Source of the DNA: Saccharomonospora saliphila YIM 90502
GTDB taxonomy: Bacteria; Actinomycetota; Actinomycetes; Mycobacteriales; Pseudonocardiaceae
Length of the DNA stretch: 32,752 nt
Direction of reading: 5' to 3'
Assembly: GCF_000383795.1 (NCBI RefSeq)
Contig: NZ_KB912678.1
Coordinates: 23,882-56,633, forward strand
In this document: piece after piece, positions 8,701 through 15,255 of the stretch
Layout of the letters: every line of letters starts with the position of its first letter
Position numbering within the stretch: the first letter of the stretch is position 1
The notes under the pieces: model-generated
The model's database searches: none
The model's input: only the letters and a program-made list of their open reading frames with translations
Told to the model about the DNA's origin: nothing
Made by a program: the position numbers and the translations under genes

Positions 8701-11700
8701 TCAGCCGTGTCCGCCACCGCCGACGCCCCTGTCCGCCGACCCGAGCGGCTGGACCCAGATGTTGCGGTAACGCACCGGGTTGCCGTGGTCCTGCAACCGG
8801 ATCGCACCGGTGGACGGTCCCTCGGCGATGGAGCCCCCGGTCGGGCCGGGGATCGCGACGTCGTCGTGCACGGTCTCCCCGTTCCACACCACGGTGATCC
8901 GGGCGTCGGACACCTTGTTCCCCTCGTCGTCGAACCGGGCGGCGCGGAACTCGATGTCATAGGTCTGCCACGTCCCGGGTGCCGTGGCGGCGTTGACGTC
9001 GGGCGCCTTGTGCTCGTAGATCGCTCCCGCCTCGTTGTCGGCGAGCGTGTCGTCGCCGTACGAGTCCAGGATCTGCACCTCGTAGCGCTCCTGCATGTAG
9101 ACGCCGCTGTTTCCCCTGTCCTGGCCGGTCACGTCCGGCGGCAGCTCCGGCACCTGAAACTCCACGTGCATCCGGTAGTCGGAGAACGCCTGCTTGGTGC
9201 GCAGGTCACCGCCGTCGACCTCCATGGCACCGCCGGAGACGAGCGGCCAGCTCGCCGTGCGCCCGTCGGTGTGCTGCCATTCCGAGAGGTCGGTGCCGTC
9301 GAACAGGGTGATCCGCCCACCGGGTTCGCGGACCGAGAGCTGGTCGAGGTTGACGTGTCCGGTGTCGCCCTCGTCCACCCGGTACTCGATCGTGTTGAGC
9401 CCGCCGGAGAGCACCAGCCGCTCGGTCTTGGTGGCCCAGTTCTGCCACGTCGTCGTGGACGGCAGTGTCGACTGCCGCACCTTGTCGCCGTTGACGTAGA
9501 CGCTGACCGTCTTGTCCCCGCTGAACGGGTGCGGGCCGTTGGAGTAGCGCAGCCCGACGTCGTAGGCTCCCGGCCGCTCGACCGCGACCTTCATCGTCGT
9601 CGAGGCGCCCTGTTCGCCGAAGCCCGCGACGAAGCCGGACCCCGTGTAGCCCGGGTGGTCACTGGCCACGCGGGCGCCGCCGTTCAGCCTGCCCGACTCG
9701 GCGTCGTAGAACACCCGCTCAGTCTGCTCCCGCTCGCCCGGGATCGCATTCAGGGTGTACCAGGCTTCGGTGTTCCACAGCTGCTGACCGTTCTCCGCGG
9801 TGAAGGGGCGCGGCGACCGCAGGTGCACGACGCGGCCGGGCTTGAGCCCGTCGATGGTGAGGGTGACGGTTTTGCGGTCGTCGGAGATCTCGGTCCCGCT
9901 GACCCGCAGCGACTCCTCGTCCACCTTCGGCCCGCCGTAGTTCTGGGTCGGGACGTAACGCCACTGCTCGACGTCGTAGCTCTGCGCGAGCTTGTCGATC
10001 GTCTCGGCCGACAACGGCCGGGTGTAGTCGATCCTGAAGCCGTTCTCGGTCGCGCGCACGGACTTCATGTCGAAGGTGTTCGCGCCGTTCGGCGTCAGCT
10101 TCTGAAGCCCGTACTTGAGCTTGCCGGGCTCACTCCAGTTGCCGCTCTCACCGATCCCGCCGACGTAGATCGCCCCGTCCGGGCCGACGATGGTGCGGTT
10201 GACGCCCGCCTCCAGGCCCGCGGAGTGGCGGAACACCGCTCCCTGGTACTCGCCGTGCACCTTCTCCAGGAACGCACGCTGGAGCCCGCCGTAGGTGACG
10301 TCCCCGAAGAGCATCTGCCCCGCGAAGGGACCCTCTTCCAGCCGCACGGGGTTGCTCGGGGAGTTGCCGATGTCGTTCTGCGGCAACCACAGCACCGGTT
10401 CGGTCACCGGCTGCTCGTCGAACGGACCGGCGGGGTTGGTGTAGTGGTTGAAGAACCGGTCCTGCTTGACGTGCACCAGCTTCGAGGAGGGCAACCAGCC
10501 ACCCTGGTTGTCCATCGCGAACAGTTCGCCCTCGGGTCCCCAGCCCATGCCGTTCGGGGTGCGCAGGCCACCCGCGACGTAGGAGACCTCACCGGTCTCC
10601 CGGTCCACCGTGATGGTGGTGCCCCGGTTCCGGGCGGGCTGCGGGTCGGTCGTCGCGCCGCCCTGGTCGATCGCGACCGACAGATTGACGTAGAAGTAGT
10701 CCTCGTCGTGCAGCAGTCCGAACGCGAACTCGTGGAAGTTCCCGCCGTAGGGCCATTCCGCGACCGTGTGGTGCTGGCGGAGACCGTCGCCGTCGGTGTC
10801 CGGGGTGAGCTCGGTGAGCCGGTCCCGTTCCGAGACGTAGATGGAGCCGTCGACGACCGCGACACCCATCGGGTTCAGCAGGTCGGTGGCGATCCTGGTG
10901 ACCGTGACCTCGTCGGGACCGGTCTCGCCGGTGACGTTGTCCAGGACGAACACTTCGCCGGGCTCAGGGTCCTCCACCGGCCCCGCCGGGCTCACCGAGC
11001 CGGAGGTGACAAGGACAAGCTTGTCGTCGGGGGTCCAGTCCATCGCCGCCACCATCGGCTGGAACCCCTCCGGCCGCAGGTCGGTCAGGGTGTAGTTCGG
11101 GTTCACCGAGTCCAGCGGCAGTCCATCACCCGGGTTGTCGACCGCACCCTCGCAATACTTGCGCCCGGGAGCCGTCACGCGGACGACATCGGAATCGGTG
11201 CTCAGCACGGAGTCGGGCACCACCGTGAACTCCGAGGCCCCGGGGGCCTTCCACGACAGGGTGAGCTGCTGACCACCGCCTGCCTCGAAGTGCTCGATGC
11301 GCAGCGGGTGGTGGCCCGGGCTCAGCGTGACGGTGCCGTCCTTGGGCTCGGCCCCGTGTAACCCGTCATGGTCGATGACCAGCTGGTCGTCGATGTAGAG
11401 CCGGGAACCGTCGTCGCTGGTCAGACGGAAGGTGTAGGCGCCCTCCTCGGGAATGTCGATGTTGGCGATCACGTGGGAAAGGAAGTTGTCCTCGAAGCCG
11501 AAGTCGTCGGCGGTGCTGAAGTCGATGGTCGGCATCAGCTTGTCGACGTTCGGGGTCGTGCCGGGTCTGAGGTCGCACAGTTCGTCCAGCGGCTGTCGCA
11601 GGTCGAACGTACGGAGGGTGACGCCCGGCTCTTGAGGCGGGAGATCGTCGGACTGGGCCTCGGCGGGCGGTGCGTTCTGGGTGGAGACGACCCCCAACAG

Positions 11701-11757
11701 CGCGACACCGAGCAGCCCAACCAGGCTTCTCCGGCGGCCGCGCGCGGTCCGTGACAC
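8701..11757 (-). CDS. Secreted PA14 / beta-propeller / CBM / 3-keto-disaccharide hydrolase protein
   Basis: 1018 residues from a GTG at 11757, chosen for GAGGAGGA about six bases upstream and the signal peptide right after it (RRRSLVGLLGVALLGVV); the frame's earlier ATG at 11859 adds no sensible sequence. Domains in order: PA14 at about 75-180 (LTSDDGSRLYIDDQLVIDHDG); a glucose/sorbosone-dehydrogenase-like propeller at about 225-640 (MDWTPDDKLVLVTSG, NPMGVAVVDGSIYVSERD, GWGPEGELFAMDNQGGW); a CBM6/35-type jelly roll at about 680-810 (YDAESGRLNGG to HVNLDQLSV); and a DUF1080 (3-keto-disaccharide hydrolase) domain at about 815-1010 (TLFDGTDLSEWQ, GNSGVYMQERYEVQILDSY). The last domain type hydrolyses or eliminates 3-keto-glycosides. 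The fusion suggests binding and processing of a glycoside at the cell surface. Catalytic assignment is inference. Confidence 0.87.
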   Translation of the reverse strand: MSRTARGRRRSLVGLLGVALLGVVSTQNAPPAEAQSDDLPPQEPGVTLRTFDLRQPLDELCDLRPGTTPNVDKLMPTIDFSTADDFGFEDNFLSHVIANIDIPEEGAYTFRLTSDDGSRLYIDDQLVIDHDGLHGAEPKDGTVTLSPGHHPLRIEHFEAGGGQQLTLSWKAPGASEFTVVPDSVLSTDSDVVRVTAPGRKYCEGAVDNPGDGLPLDSVNPNYTLTDLRPEGFQPMVAAMDWTPDDKLVLVTSGSVSPAGPVEDPEPGEVFVLDNVTGETGPDEVTVTRIATDLLNPMGVAVVDGSIYVSERDRLTELTPDTDGDGLRQHHTVAEWPYGGNFHEFAFGLLHDEDYFYVNLSVAIDQGGATTDPQPARNRGTTITVDRETGEVSYVAGGLRTPNGMGWGPEGELFAMDNQGGWLPSSKLVHVKQDRFFNHYTNPAGPFDEQPVTEPVLWLPQNDIGNSPSNPVRLEEGPFAGQMLFGDVTYGGLQRAFLEKVHGEYQGAVFRHSAGLEAGVNRTIVGPDGAIYVGGIGESGNWSEPGKLKYGLQKLTPNGANTFDMKSVRATENGFRIDYTRPLSAETIDKLAQSYDVEQWRYVPTQNYGGPKVDEESLRVSGTEISDDRKTVTLTIDGLKPGRVVHLRSPRPFTAENGQQLWNTEAWYTLNAIPGEREQTERVFYDAESGRLNGGARVASDHPGYTGSGFVAGFGEQGASTTMKVAVERPGAYDVGLRYSNGPHPFSGDKTVSVYVNGDKVRQSTLPSTTTWQNWATKTERLVLSGGLNTIEYRVDEGDTGHVNLDQLSVREPGGRITLFDGTDLSEWQHTDGRTASWPLVSGGAMEVDGGDLRTKQAFSDYRMHVEFQVPELPPDVTGQDRGNSGVYMQERYEVQILDSYGDDTLADNEAGAIYEHKAPDVNAATAPGTWQTYDIEFRAARFDDEGNKVSDARITVVWNGETVHDDVAIPGPTGGSIAEGPSTGAIRLQDHGNPVRYRNIWVQPLGSADRGVGGGGHG

Positions 11758-12298
11758 TATGCTTCCTCCTCGAAGCTGATCCCGGCATGCACCAGCGGCG
11801 CACGCCACGGTGTCGAGCGGCCGGGTAGGCGTGGCGCCTCGCTCACACCACTTCTTCACGTTTTAAGCAGAAGTACACTGCTCGCGCTCAAAAGTAGTGA
11901 TCCGAGAGCCCAAAGTCATCGGCTGATGGCGTGACAGCACCCCGTGCGCCTATTGCCCCGAGTAGCGTCGGGGCGCTCGTCGGCCTTCGCCGGTCGGAAG
12001 GAGCATCGCCGACGCTCCTGTTCAGGGCGCCACTCGGCTGGTGCCGAGATGTTGTGCACCCGACGCGCATGCGCGGATTTCCGTACTCCGCGTCAGCGGA
12101 TGCCAGATGTGGATCTAATGCGCACTCCGACTGGCCGGTGGGACGACGACGGCGCTATTCCCGGCCGCTGCGACACCAAAGGTCCGGCAACGCGACCGGG
12201 GTTGTGGAAGGCCACGCCACGTGACCGACATACGCTCGGCTCGTCATCCGGCCGCGGTCATGTACCCCCTTCGGACGCGACCTTCCACACGACCACAC

Positions 12299-12334
12299 TT
12301 GTTAACAGTTGTTGCGCGACCGGGTCAACAACTG
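12299..12334. promoter_or_regulatory. Inverted-repeat operator candidate of the EspR-like regulator
   Basis: CAGTTGTTG (12306-12314) and CAACAACTG (12326-12334) are perfect nine-base inverted arms around an 11-base spacer. The palindrome TGTTAACA (12299-12306) abuts the left arm and repeats the GTT/AAC theme. The right arm reaches the -35 position of the promoter whose -10 is TACAGT at 12353, so binding would block polymerase. The HTH protein encoded just downstream is the likely ligand. Confidence 0.6.
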
Positions 12335-12352
12335 ATCTCATGAACCGGGCAG

Positions 12353-12358
12353 TACAGT
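12353..12358 (+). promoter_or_regulatory. -10 box candidate (TACAGT) of the XRE cassette
   Basis: TACAGT lies 31 bases before the chosen ATG at 12390. The -35 region (12330-12335) is poor and overlaps the inverted repeat, as expected for a regulated promoter. Confidence 0.45.
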
Positions 12359-12389
12359 GCCTCTGTCATCGCTGCCCCACGGAGTGACC

Positions 12390-12857
12390 ATGACCGAGAC
12401 CCCCGCGACCTTCGGCGAGAAGCTGGCGTTTCTGATCGAGACGATGCACCCGGCCTCGCGCGGTCCCTACGACGACGACGAGCTCGCACGGGCGTGGGGT
12501 GTGTCACGACAGTACGTATGGCAGCTGCGGACGGGGCGACGCGCCGAACCGCGCCACACGGTGGCGATGAAGATCGTGCGGTTCTTCGGGGTCCCCGAGG
12601 ACTACTTCGTCAACGACGACACCACTGTCGCGGTGATGCGCCAGATCCAGGACGTCCTGCGCGCACGCGACACCGCGCGCGCCGACACCGACCCCGGGGA
12701 CGACGTCGAGCTGCGCCGCCTGGCACTGCGCATCGTCGGGCTCTCCGCCCAGGAGCGTGAGGTGGTCTCCACGGTCGTGGAGGAACTGCGCTCCTACGAC
12801 GAGCAGCCCCGCCGCCACCGCGCCCGGCGCAAACCACCCCGACCCGAGCGGGGCTGA
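12390..12857 (+). CDS. XRE-family regulator resembling EspR
   Basis: 155 residues. The ATG at 12390 has GGAG five bases upstream; a GTG at 12384 is less likely. The layout resembles mycobacterial EspR: an N-terminal helix (FGEKLAFLIETMHPASRGPY), a helix-turn-helix at about 29-50 (DELARAWGVSRQYVWQLRTG), a FFGVPEDYF segment at 65-73, then C-terminal helices ending LALRIVGLSAQEREVVSTVVEEL that resemble the EspR dimerisation region. EspR-like proteins bind DNA as dimers of dimers and loop it. Here the protein most likely controls its own promoter through the inverted repeat at 12306-12334. It heads a cassette with a metalloprotease of the type that cleaves such repressors. Confidence 0.85.
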   Translation: MTETPATFGEKLAFLIETMHPASRGPYDDDELARAWGVSRQYVWQLRTGRRAEPRHTVAMKIVRFFGVPEDYFVNDDTTVAVMRQIQDVLRARDTARADTDPGDDVELRRLALRIVGLSAQEREVVSTVVEELRSYDEQPRRHRARRKPPRPERG

Positions 12858-12977
12858 CCCGCGCCCGTGCGTCAGGATCACGGTGGTCCGACACGCGCCT
12901 TCGGGGCGCCCCGGTGCGTCCGCACCACCTCGGACCAGGCGTGGTCAGTCGGCTCGTCGTCGGGAGGGGGCGAGAGG

Positions 12978-13514
12978 GTGAAGCGGACGGAGGCCGGATA
13001 CCGCTGCACGGCACTGGTAGACGATGTCCTGCGCCGCACCGGCGTTCCGGAACCGTGGGACATCAACGCATGGCTCGACCGGCTGGAGCGGGTCCGGGGA
13101 CGGCGCATCGACCTGTGCGCGCTGACGTTCTCACCCGGCTCCGCCACCGGGGCCTGGCGGGCCCACCGCGACCATGACGTGATCGCGTATCCAGCGAACA
13201 CCGCGAGCTTCCACCAGGACCACATCATCCTGCACGAGGTCGGGCACATGCTCTTCGAACACTCCGGGCGGTGCCCGCTGTCGGACGAGCGCGCGCGGAG
13301 ACTGGCGCCCAGCCTCGGCGCGGCCGCGTTCACCCACCTGCTCGACCGTGTCCACAATGGCGGGGACGAGTACGAGGCCGAGCGGTTCGCCCATCTCCTG
13401 CACGCACGGGTCACCACACGGGCGGTCCCCCGGCCCCGGCACCACCGGCCGCCGGAGGACGCGGGCACGGCCGACACCCTCGCCCGGTTGACGACCACAC
13501 TCGACGACCCCTGA
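12978..13514 (+). CDS. ImmA/IrrE-family metallopeptidase
   Basis: 178 residues from a GTG at 12978 with a GGGAGGGGG ribosome site; an in-frame start at 12867 would add 37 residues unlike the family. HEVGH (86-90) gives two zinc ligands and the general base, and EYEAERFAHLL (131 on) gives the downstream glutamate. No DNA-binding domain is attached. In ICEBs1 and Deinococcus, ImmA/IrrE proteins cleave or inactivate an XRE-type repressor coded next door, so the target is probably the regulator 120 bases upstream. The stop codon overlaps the next gene's ATG (TGATG), so the membrane protein is co-translated. Confidence 0.87.
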   Translation: MKRTEAGYRCTALVDDVLRRTGVPEPWDINAWLDRLERVRGRRIDLCALTFSPGSATGAWRAHRDHDVIAYPANTASFHQDHIILHEVGHMLFEHSGRCPLSDERARRLAPSLGAAAFTHLLDRVHNGGDEYEAERFAHLLHARVTTRAVPRPRHHRPPEDAGTADTLARLTTTLDDP

Positions 13515-14650
13515 TGGGCACGGCGGTGATGGTGACCGCGGGGCTCGTCGCGGTCACGGGCGGAACGCTGCGCCTGTTCCGGGCGCGCGGACGGCTGACC
13601 CCCGCGACGGCCTACCTCTGTGCGGCAGTGATCACCGCGGGGGTCTCCGCCGCGCTGTCGGCCCCGGCGGTGCTCGCCGCCGCCGCACGGGTGGAACCGG
13701 CGCCGAACGTGACCAGATTGCTGGTCAACGGTGTCGGCATGGTCGCCGCGTGGTGCGTGCAAAGCATGCTCACCCACCTGGTCTCCGCCGAGCCGGCGCG
13801 AGCGCGGGCGACCGTGCGGGTCCAGGCCGTCGTACTGGCACTCACGGTCACGGCCATGGCGGCGCTGTTCCTGTCGGCGCCGACGACCTACCGCCCCGAC
13901 TTCCTCGACGCCTTCGCGCACCTGCCCGGCATCTACGGCTACCTGCTGCTCTTCGCCACCTACATCGGCTGGAGCCTGCTGCGGTTGGTGCGCCTCTTGG
14001 GCCGCTACGCCGGGATGACCGGCCGCCGGTGGCTCCGGCTCGGGATGCGGGTCATGCAAGCGGGCGCGGCGTTCGGGGCCGGGTGGGCGGTACACAAGGT
14101 TCTCGCCTCGACGGCCGTGTTCCTCACCGGCTCGTCCTACCCGGGTTCGGCGGTCCTCGCGTCCGCCCTGCCCGGCACGTCGGTGGCGCTCATCGCGGTC
14201 GGCGTGTGCGTGCCCGTGTGCGCGCCCCGGGTGGCGCGCGTGGCGCTGTGGGCCCGGCGCCACCGGCAGTACCGGGGTCTGCGCGGCCTTTGGCTCCGGT
14301 TGTCGCCGGTGATCGTCGAGGTGCGGCACACCAGCGACCGGGACGGGTCGATCCACGAGCGCCTCAGCACTCGCGTCGTGGAGATCCTCGACGCACTGCT
14401 GGTGCTGGCCGCCTACCGGGACGGCGATGGTGGGGCCTCCGGCACGGCACCGACCCCGGAGCACGAGGCCGCCTCGGTCGCCGCCGCGCTGGCGCGCTGG
14501 CGCGCAGGGGCACCCCCGACGCGGGGTCCGGCGCCCGGCCCGGGACACACCGTGGATGATCTGGATGGCGAGATAGCGTGGCTCCGCCGACTCGACCGTG
14601 CCCTGCGGCGCGCGACCGCGCCGAGTGACACCGTGAGGGGAGTTCGTTGA
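13514..14650 (+). CDS. Seven-helix membrane protein, MAB_1171c type
   Basis: 378 residues. Seven hydrophobic segments lie at about 3-20, 32-57, 68-90, 102-122, 138-158, 176-205 and 212-236. A cytosolic C-terminal half follows, with YRGLRGLWLRLSPVI at about 253-267, LSTRVVEILDALLVLAAY around 295, and a helical tail. I recognise this pattern as the MAB_1171c (putative transporter) family that accompanies XRE and ImmA/IrrE genes in actinomycetes. Its function is unknown; a sensor feeding the protease is a reasonable guess and transport is the database label. The start overlaps the protease stop and the end overlaps the next gene's TTG, so the three are co-expressed. Confidence 0.8.
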   Translation: MGTAVMVTAGLVAVTGGTLRLFRARGRLTPATAYLCAAVITAGVSAALSAPAVLAAAARVEPAPNVTRLLVNGVGMVAAWCVQSMLTHLVSAEPARARATVRVQAVVLALTVTAMAALFLSAPTTYRPDFLDAFAHLPGIYGYLLLFATYIGWSLLRLVRLLGRYAGMTGRRWLRLGMRVMQAGAAFGAGWAVHKVLASTAVFLTGSSYPGSAVLASALPGTSVALIAVGVCVPVCAPRVARVALWARRHRQYRGLRGLWLRLSPVIVEVRHTSDRDGSIHERLSTRVVEILDALLVLAAYRDGDGGASGTAPTPEHEAASVAAALARWRAGAPPTRGPAPGPGHTVDDLDGEIAWLRRLDRALRRATAPSDTVRGVR

Positions 14651-15255
14651 CTGTTCGGACCGAGGCCCGCCCGGACGGGCACACCCGCTGGGCGCGCGGG
14701 CTGACCGAGGTGTTCGCCCCGTGGGTGATCGTGATCGTGTTGTCCGTGGCCGTGGCCTGGGCGGCGACCCGTGCGTGGCTGCCCACGATGGCGTGGGGCC
14801 TGCTGATCGCGCTGACCAGCAGCGTCCTGCCGATGGGCGTGATCGTGTGGGGTGCGCGCACCGGTCGCTGGGACGGCCACCACGTGCGCGACCGCGGAGG
14901 CCGGTTGGTGCCGTTCGTGGCGCTGATCGTGCTCAGCGGGCTCGGGCTAACGCTGCTGGTGCTCTGGGGCGCGCCGTGGACGCTGATCGCGCTCGACGTC
15001 TCCATGCTGGCGAGCCTGCTGGTCACGGGCGCGATCACGGCGTGGTGGAAGGTGTCGATGCACGCCGCCGTCGCGGCCGGCGCGGTGGCGATCCTGGCCG
15101 CGACCTACACGCCGTGGGCGTGGACGGCGCTGGTGCTGGTGGCCGCGGTGTGCTGGTCCCGGGTGCGCCTGCGCGACCACACCCCCGCGCAGGTGGCGGT
15201 CGGGTCCGTTGCGGGCGTGGTCGTGGGAGGCGGAGCGTTCGTCCTGGTGCTGTGA
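14647..15255 (+). CDS. PAP2-like membrane phosphatase, incomplete active site
   Basis: 202 residues from a TTG at 14647 that overlaps the previous stop (TTGA); GAGGGGAG lies upstream at a normal spacing. About five membrane helices. WWKVSMH (133-139) stands where the PSGH motif of PAP2 phosphatases falls, and SRVRLRDHTPAQ (171-182) matches the third motif (S-R-x5-H-x3-D), except that Gln182 replaces the aspartate. PAP2 enzymes remove phosphate from lipid phosphates such as undecaprenyl diphosphate or phosphatidate. Because this residue is replaced and motif 1 is indistinct, the enzyme may be divergent or inactive. Last gene of the EspR-like cassette. Confidence 0.75.
   Translation: MTVRTEARPDGHTRWARGLTEVFAPWVIVIVLSVAVAWAATRAWLPTMAWGLLIALTSSVLPMGVIVWGARTGRWDGHHVRDRGGRLVPFVALIVLSGLGLTLLVLWGAPWTLIALDVSMLASLLVTGAITAWWKVSMHAAVAAGAVAILAATYTPWAWTALVLVAAVCWSRVRLRDHTPAQVAVGSVAGVVVGGGAFVLVL

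Follow-up and report, generated by a model that had tools for sequence, protein, structure and literature searches.

A widespread actinomycete cassette of an EspR-type regulator, an IrrE-type protease and a seven-helix membrane protein that may act as a sensor-protease-repressor circuit

In the ImmA-ImmR pair of ICEBs1-type elements, a single-domain M78 protease is encoded beside an XRE repressor, as in the gene cassette reported here; unlike the cassette, the pair controls a mobile element and has no membrane receptor partner. In the BlaR1-BlaI and MecR1-MecI systems, a membrane sensor, a metalloprotease and the removal of a repressor lead to the induction of an enzyme, which is also the logic proposed below. 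EspR (Rv3849) of Mycobacterium tuberculosis is a nucleoid-associated global regulator for which we know of no protease partner. In the protease PprI, a GAF-like domain is required for the binding of single-stranded DNA (ssDNA) and for ssDNA-stimulated cleavage, according to the available part of the source (PMC10904395). The present analysis concerns a stretch of 32,752 nucleotides from Saccharomonospora saliphila YIM 90502 (assembly GCF_000383795.1, contig NZ_KB912678.1, positions 23,882 to 56,633 of the forward strand), hereafter called the window. At 12299-15255 it holds four genes in a row, encoding an EspR-type regulator (REG), an IrrE-type protease (PEP), a seven-helix membrane protein of the MAB_1171c type (MEM) and a PAP2-type membrane protein (PAP).

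The cassette formed by REG, PEP and MEM is real and widespread in actinomycetes. An initial interpretation of the window, made from its letters alone and called here the sequence-only reading, had taken the four genes as one signalling unit whose last three members overlap. Both points held: PEP shares 1 bp with MEM (TGATG), and MEM shares 4 bp with PAP (TTGA), while REG stands apart from PEP by a gap of 120 bp. The observation also proved larger than first described. REG, PEP and MEM were found together in 64 of 81 surveyed MEM loci, which exceeds what chance would give. In its own genome each of the three is the sole match of its own profile (E ≤ 1e-10 for REG, 0.001 for PEP and 0.001 for MEM). 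The features in the window are the following.

Box 1, 12301..12314, plus strand: GTTAACAGTTGTTG, first of two operator-like boxes (basis: promoter alignment, 9/9 genus carriers).
Box 2, 12324..12337, plus strand: GTCAACAACTGATC, diverged, overlapping the -35 position (basis: alignment of nine promoters).
REG, 12390..12857, plus strand: EspR-family helix-turn-helix (HTH) regulator, 155 amino acids (basis: phmmer and profile).
PEP, 12978..13514, plus strand: minimal M78/IrrE-type metalloprotease, 178 amino acids, GTG start (basis: motifs and model).
MEM, 13514..14650, plus strand: MAB_1171c/DUF6545 seven-helix protein, 378 amino acids (basis: NF042915, DUF6545 and model).
PAP, 14647..15255, plus strand: putative PAP2-superfamily membrane protein, 202 amino acids, TTG start, the variable output gene of the cassette (basis: PF01569).

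The distribution of MEM was determined by searching NF042915 in a kin sample (61 genomes), a class-wide sample (197 genomes) and 14 control genomes. MEM was found in 33 of the 61 kin genomes (31 above the cut-off) and in 37 of the 197 class-wide genomes (26 above the cut-off), and in none of the 14 controls; within the genus, 9 of 12 members carry it, own genome included. The set of 81 loci, which have MEM by choice, comprises the window and 80 loci fetched from both surveys, a selection of the matches with several per genome, and was searched with iterated profiles. PEP was present in 76 of them, REG in 66 and PAP in 16, and 57 cases show the tandem order REG-PEP-MEM. Of the five loci that lack PEP, L043 begins at a contig end.

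Linkage was also counted from the side of the other genes. A PEP profile search over 60 family genomes gave a match in at least 43, and 82 PEP matches were listed for the genomes shared with the NF042915 kin survey. MEM lies directly downstream in 77 of these 82 (one gene counted as two matches); the remaining five are three weak partial matches, one gene with an internal stop and one about 1.1 kb from a contig end. In 18 genomes, PEP lies downstream of 56 of the 68 REG-profile matches at E ≤ 1e-10, some of which are two partial matches of one gene, and REG lies directly upstream of 53 of 72 PEP matches, a count that leaves out three weak partial matches and one half-gene. The linkage counts thus show PEP and MEM to be near-obligate partners, REG to be frequent yet not obligate, and PAP to be lineage-specific. 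Frequent separation of the genes in other genomes had been named beforehand as what would speak against a single cassette; PEP and MEM stay together, being apart in 5 of 82 cases, whereas REG separates in part and the PAP2 gene does so widely.

A separate regulator at the loci without REG was considered and rejected, since the ten nearest upstream neighbours scanned, that of the MEM-only locus L046 among them, contain no HTH protein. Loci L127-L132, from genomes of 6-10 Mb of one family in the class survey, show a subtype of their own, PEP-MEM(-MEM)-FAD-like protein (FAD, flavin adenine dinucleotide), with no REG and no regulator found next door.

The divergence of the three proteins was compared by distance-matrix correlation. 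Over 49 triads, from which eight near-copies of the genus were left out, the correlation was 0.80 for PEP-MEM, 0.64 for REG-PEP and 0.55 for REG-MEM; none of 2000 permutations reached values as high, and species kinship is still included in these figures. Within genomes, after assignment of the 81 loci, 15 paralogue pairs gave r = 0.90 for PEP-MEM, 0.22 for REG-PEP and 0.50 for REG-MEM. When single pairs were left out in turn, the PEP-MEM value stayed between 0.87 and 0.90 and the REG-PEP value ranged from -0.28 to 0.59. The high and stable co-variation indicates that PEP and MEM are an intimate pair. Because it swings when single pairs are dropped, and the REG pairs are too few, the within-genome REG-PEP correlation is not regarded as strong counter-evidence to a REG-PEP relation. 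Two natural fusions were encountered. In L143 (5134-6096), REG and PEP are joined in one frame of 320 amino acids, with a second REG before it and MEM next to it; in L068 (4013-5761), MEM and PAP2 form a single protein, and no PEP gene lies between REG and MEM.

PEP carries HEVGH at 13233-13247 and a third-ligand Glu at 13368-13370. All 78 homologue rows retain HExxH and this Glu, and H86, E87, H90 and E131 are invariant in the 75 rows that form alignment A1. PEP scored 16.6 bits against Pfam M78 (PF06114), below the cut-off of 22, and a whole-genome search with PF06114 matched four other M78 proteins, PEP not being among them. The structural model (predicted local distance difference test, pLDDT, 83.4) superposed on IrrE (3dti) with Z 12.1 and a root-mean-square deviation (rmsd) of 2.4 over 103 residues, and on CapP (7t5t) with Z 10.2 and rmsd 3.5 over 115 residues. 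Further matches were PprI (8sln, Z 11.3) and the M. tuberculosis regulator 6d2s (Z 9.2), while metalloproteases of other families reached Z ≤ 5.1 among the matches listed. Structural matches for both PEP and MEM were taken from the top 1000 candidates of Foldseek, so matches to other families may exist, and the Foldseek E-value of PEP against PprI 8sln was only 8.6e-3. Judged by its modelled fold, PEP is of the IrrE type, not a member of Pfam M78. The ImmA/IrrE assignment made at the outset therefore stands, with PEP as an intact protease domain of that family.

In the superposition on IrrE, PEP (178 amino acids) aligns solely with residues 9-129 of 3dti, the peptidase portion at the N-terminus, and PEP is a peptidase domain alone, without the GAF-like sensor domain of PprI. 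Since it lacks the domain through which ssDNA activates PprI, its switch would be supplied in trans by MEM. Near-obligate linkage, co-variation and this missing sensor domain together make a coupling of MEM and PEP, as sensor and protease, well supported by genomics.

MEM matched the MAB_1171c family (NF042915) with 192 bits (cut-off 100), and its C-terminus matched DUF6545 (PF20182) with 62.7 bits (cut-off 24.4). The model, built from 81 rows, had a pLDDT of 93.6 and a predicted template modelling score of 0.85. It displays seven long helices within residues 1-255; the predicted transmembrane part spans about residues 1-244 and is followed by a helical cytosolic C-terminal domain at about 245-369. 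An Asp of DUF6545, D293 in the MEM of the window, is nearly invariant. Lysine and arginine numbered 3, 1, 1, 1, 4 and 0 over the six loops and 8 after helix 7, which is consistent with a topology with the N-terminus outside and the C-terminus inside. The bundle was superposed on G-protein-coupled receptors (GPCRs) by VIA-align, the best being 8iq4 (Z 15.8, rmsd 3.8 over 235 residues), and the 50 structural matches listed were all GPCRs or one designed GPCR-like fold. This likeness is a statement on the modelled helix arrangement, not on descent. The membrane sensor of MAB_1171c type that had been proposed for this gene fits these results, MEM appearing more receptor-like than transporter-like. 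Mean pairwise identity was higher in the cytosolic part (0.28) than in the bundle (0.21). In the proposed circuit the bundle would sense the signal, perhaps a lipophilic or envelope-associated one, and the better conserved cytosolic DUF6545 domain would control PEP.

REG matched EspR (3qf3) over residues 6-134 by phmmer (E 1.6e-8), and the profile of its family matched EspR with E 1.5e-38 over 4-132 of 140. From these alignments REG is placed in the EspR family, as had been suggested, and as a full-length homologue with the HTH and the C-terminal helical domain. A REG homologue in L067 matched the capH model weakly (E 1.1e-6).

All nine aligned REG promoters of the genus carry a pair of direct boxes, of which GTTAACAnnTGTTR is the first and, at a distance of 22-23 bp, GTCAACAnnTGTTR the second. 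Deviations are few: the second box is changed in the window and in L037, and the first box of L038 is changed to GTTTACAGTCGTT. In seven of the nine promoters a TTGTTR hexamer stands in the right half of box 2, 17-18 bp before TAnnnT. Box 2 thus appears to lie over the predicted -35 element in these seven, a geometry that looks repressor-like from the sequence; that conserved boxes overlap the predicted promoter of REG agrees with the earlier interpretation. REG would sit on the two boxes, overlapping the -35 of its own promoter, and repress the operon. The sequence-only reading had noted in the promoter a 9-bp inverted repeat plus TGTTAACA. Both exist (the repeat at 12306-12334), but the repeat is confined to this genome among the nine promoters of the genus; it was rejected as the operator, the conserved feature being the pair of direct boxes.

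A search of 12 genomes of the genus for the pattern GTYAACANNTGTTR yielded 18 matches, of which 17 lie at the cassette promoters of all nine carriers and one elsewhere, two palindromic sites being counted on both strands. No match was found in the three non-carrier genomes of the genus, and a reversed control gave ten scattered matches. Since the pattern was read off these same promoters, it is informative solely as to scarcity elsewhere. AACAnnTGTT as a family-wide operator was rejected from the REG upstream regions of other genera. Related words are enriched there: of 60 such regions, 23 hold GTCAAC (7.9 expected), 19 hold TCAACT (3.9 expected) and 14 hold TCAAC-N2-7-GTTGA when one mismatch is allowed (1.9 expected). 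These motifs were chosen after inspection of the sequences, the words GTCAAC and TCAACT also from all 6-mers; the figures are uncorrected for multiple testing, and the 60 stretches include some that are coding. A second conserved block was observed upstream of the boxes, at 12210-12289 in the window and in eight relatives. Its arms resemble CRYGTGACC ... GGTCAYGT and vary in their spacing, and it includes a stretch CCCCTTCG...CGACCT; it is perhaps a further regulator site.

PAP passed the PAP2 model (PF01569) narrowly, with 27.9 bits against a cut-off of 27.2. PAP2 phosphatases carry the motifs KX6RP, PSGH and SRX5HX3D, of which PAP has the variants HX6R, KxSxH and SRX5HX3Q. In an alignment of 16 rows, the His of motif 2 is present in 14 and that of motif 3 in all 16. 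The output gene is swapped between lineages. Downstream of MEM were found amidohydrolases (a cluster of 10, four scanned), FAD proteins (clusters of 9 and 4, two scanned in each, the larger with sub-threshold scores), cytochromes P450 (three, two scanned) and F420H2-quinone-reductase-like proteins (three, one scanned). Single cases were a nucleoside hydrolase, an amidase, a methyltransferase, a short-chain dehydrogenase, a 3-hydroxyacyl-CoA dehydrogenase, a luciferase-like monooxygenase and a lipocalin-like protein; in L048 an amidohydrolase also stands divergently upstream of PEP. On a MEM tree of 86 rows the output labels require at least 24 changes when 'none' is treated as a state and 14 without it; the tree was made by a 'quick' method, and the 34 rows labelled none include some with unscanned neighbours. 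The lipid-phosphatase-like output first proposed would suit only the PAP2-bearing lineages, and elsewhere another enzyme takes its place. The enzyme types look like agents of small-molecule or lipid modification, and the signal may be the substrate of the output enzyme.

As a separate observation, in six of the nine genus carriers (L035:9843-12537, L037, L038, L040, L041 and L042) a HalD/WelO5-like iron/2-oxoglutarate enzyme and a choline/carnitine acyltransferase follow the cassette on the same strand, and in L036 the two lie on one contig, but apart. The acyltransferase was not found in the genome of the window, which is 84% complete.

Taken together, the proposal is that a seven-transmembrane sensor gates a protease, that the protease removes an EspR-type autorepressor and that an output enzyme rises in consequence. 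In sequence, a signal would activate PEP, PEP would inactivate REG by cleavage, and the operon would be induced, giving more of the output enzyme. This enzyme would be a PAP2-type membrane protein here, and in other lineages an amidohydrolase, a P450, a FAD protein or others. We regard the chances of this circuit as about even. As first put forward it is partly supported: the tie between PEP and MEM, the protease domain and the boxes favour it, while REG is not obligate and PAP2 is lineage-specific. Its two steps differ in strength. The repressor step was drawn from the adjacency of the genes, the one REG-PEP fusion, the placement of the boxes and the precedent of PprI-DdrO and CapP-CapH, so that REG may be the substrate of PEP by analogy, on mixed evidence.

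Several results weigh against the circuit, most of them at the repressor step. Twelve of the 68 REG-profile matches have no PEP downstream (one of them, G030:C1, does have a weak partial PEP match, left uncounted), and 19 of the 72 PEP matches have no REG directly upstream. Twelve of the 76 PEP-bearing loci contain no REG at all, and in the nine of these that were scanned the nearest upstream neighbour is not an HTH protein. Within genomes REG tracks PEP poorly (Pearson 0.22, Spearman -0.26), values that are unstable to single pairs. The box 2 and -35 of the window itself are degenerate, and a consensus scan calls no promoter there; the genus pattern AACAnnTGTT stands before none of 60 REGs outside the genus. 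On the side of the sensor, the best Foldseek E-value for MEM was 0.021, with none ≤ 0.001, and its Z of 15.8 is little above the 13-14 or so that chance can give for helical bundles. Finally, cutting of EspR itself by a protease is not known to us.

Much of this evidence would also fit a true unit made of PEP and MEM, in which the target of the protease would be MEM, the output enzyme or some other protein, with REG as just a neighbouring autoregulator. The linkage of PEP to MEM is tighter than that to REG, the within-genome divergence couples PEP with MEM over REG, and the PEP-MEM loci without REG are what this explanation expects. The REG-PEP fusion in L143 and the presence of PEP downstream of most REG-profile matches argue otherwise, as do the characterised relatives PprI-DdrO and CapP-CapH, in which, in the part of the source available, an HTH regulator is cut (PMC10904395). 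We consider a unit without REG unlikely, although it is the strongest of the alternatives.

MEM could instead be a transporter or a lipid-binding membrane protein, the operon a unit for transport or envelope maintenance and the protease an agent of quality control. The NCBIfam label for MEM is 'putative transporter'. In the accessible part of a study of M. abscessus, knockout of MAB_1171c removed about half of the biofilm and lowered the minimum inhibitory concentrations of clarithromycin (0.5 vs 2) and cefoxitin (4 vs 16) (PMC8707978). The authors regard the gene product as a transporter, and shifts were also seen in many other mutants of that set, so the knockout does not discriminate between the readings. 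Pfam gave DUF6545 in 81 of 81 MEM members and each other family, among the first 25 of 33, in one member and weakly; one of these matches was to PF16927 (HisKA_7TM), E 0.0011. Kinship of MEM with a named transporter was rejected on these grounds, and the same scan found no kinase, cyclase or phosphodiesterase domain. With the GPCR-like matches of the bundle, and with no transporter ATPase among the scanned downstream genes, a transport or maintenance unit appears improbable.

Returning to the circuit of sensor, protease and repressor, its mobility was evaluated. The genes flanking the cassette in the window are not constant. They are a diacylglycerol kinase gene and, at 8701-11859 on the minus strand and divergent from the cassette, a gene whose large product combines PA14, carbohydrate-binding and 3-keto-disaccharide hydrolase domains; neither was detected around the cassette in the eight other genus carriers (blastp, E ≤ 1e-3, about 8 kb either side, less in L036). 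The location of the cassette therefore differs between genomes. PEP relatives were found in 56 of 72,556 plasmid records and in 2 of 50,697 phage records, namely phage Adler and a near-copy. A phage origin of the cassette was rejected, these two being the only phage records. Eleven plasmid and phage regions were read, and in every one MEM follows PEP (ten by annotation, Adler by NF042915 with 110 bits); six have an annotated HTH gene immediately upstream. MEM is followed by a P450 in seven regions (M. riyadhense, Adler, three Streptomyces and two Nocardia) and by a nucleoside hydrolase in one, and in the other three no co-directional enzyme follows, one of these being at the end of its record. 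In phage Adler of M. abscessus (L177:5495-9108, KC960489.1), four consecutive genes encode an XRE regulator, a relative of PEP, a protein of the MAB_1171c family and a P450, and all but the regulator are annotated as hypothetical.

A toxin-antitoxin or stress cassette, with REG as antitoxin, PEP as toxin and MEM as membrane target or export component, is very improbable: the 'toxin' annotation of PEP homologues on Streptomyces plasmids, carriage on plasmids and phage and a weak resemblance of REG, far under the threshold, to the spr1629 antitoxin model favour it, but PEP accompanies MEM more constantly than REG, the attached genes are mostly metabolic enzymes, PADLOC matches are weak, and M78 domains of known function are regulatory proteases (PprI and CapP, in the part of PMC10904395 at hand). 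A role of the cassette as a defence system was rejected on the same weak PADLOC matches.

A broader version of the sensor-protease-repressor circuit can be put forward tentatively, and we lean against it in its full extent. A large family of GPCR-shaped actinomycete receptors, using neither kinases nor G proteins for signalling, would gate a dedicated soluble IrrE-type protease that destroys an EspR-type repressor, inducing an enzyme matched to the signal (PAP2, P450, amidohydrolase, FAD protein, nucleoside hydrolase and others). Where a genome has several copies, each would sense its own small molecule or lipid, in parallel with the others and insulated from them, and the set would move on plasmids and at least one phage. 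If the circuit is true, a membrane receptor joins the switches of protease and repressor that are known to answer DNA damage and peptides, and an EspR-type protein comes under proteolytic control. DUF6545, now 'unknown' or 'putative transporter', would gain a function, and natural sensor-enzyme pairs would become available whose downstream enzyme gives a clue to the signal. Literature searches, mostly without subscription papers, found no prior description of the REG-PEP-MEM unit, and the available part of a review on Streptomyces development contains nothing on it (PMC4255298).

The cassette is a variation on known switches of M78 protease and XRE repressor, to which it adds a membrane protein. 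With PprI/IrrE-DdrO of Deinococcus it shares the M78-type protease fold, the HTH regulator partner and, as proposed, the derepression logic. PprI includes an HTH and a GAF-like domain and responds to ssDNA as its activator, as stated in the part of the source available (PMC10904395), whereas PEP is the protease domain alone, tied to a seven-transmembrane protein, and the regulator is of the EspR family. CapP-CapH, from operons of the cyclic-oligonucleotide-based antiphage signalling system (CBASS), likewise combines the protease fold with an HTH regulator. It answers DNA damage or ssDNA and controls CBASS immunity, according to the same partial source (PMC10904395); here the membrane protein is the constant partner and the outputs are metabolic or lipid enzymes. 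In BlaR1 and MecR1, sensor and protease are one membrane protein and the protease is of another family, whereas the cassette divides them between two genes. The HisKA_7TM kinases also have a seven-helix sensor with a cytosolic signalling part; by comparison, the signal of MEM would pass through a separate protease.

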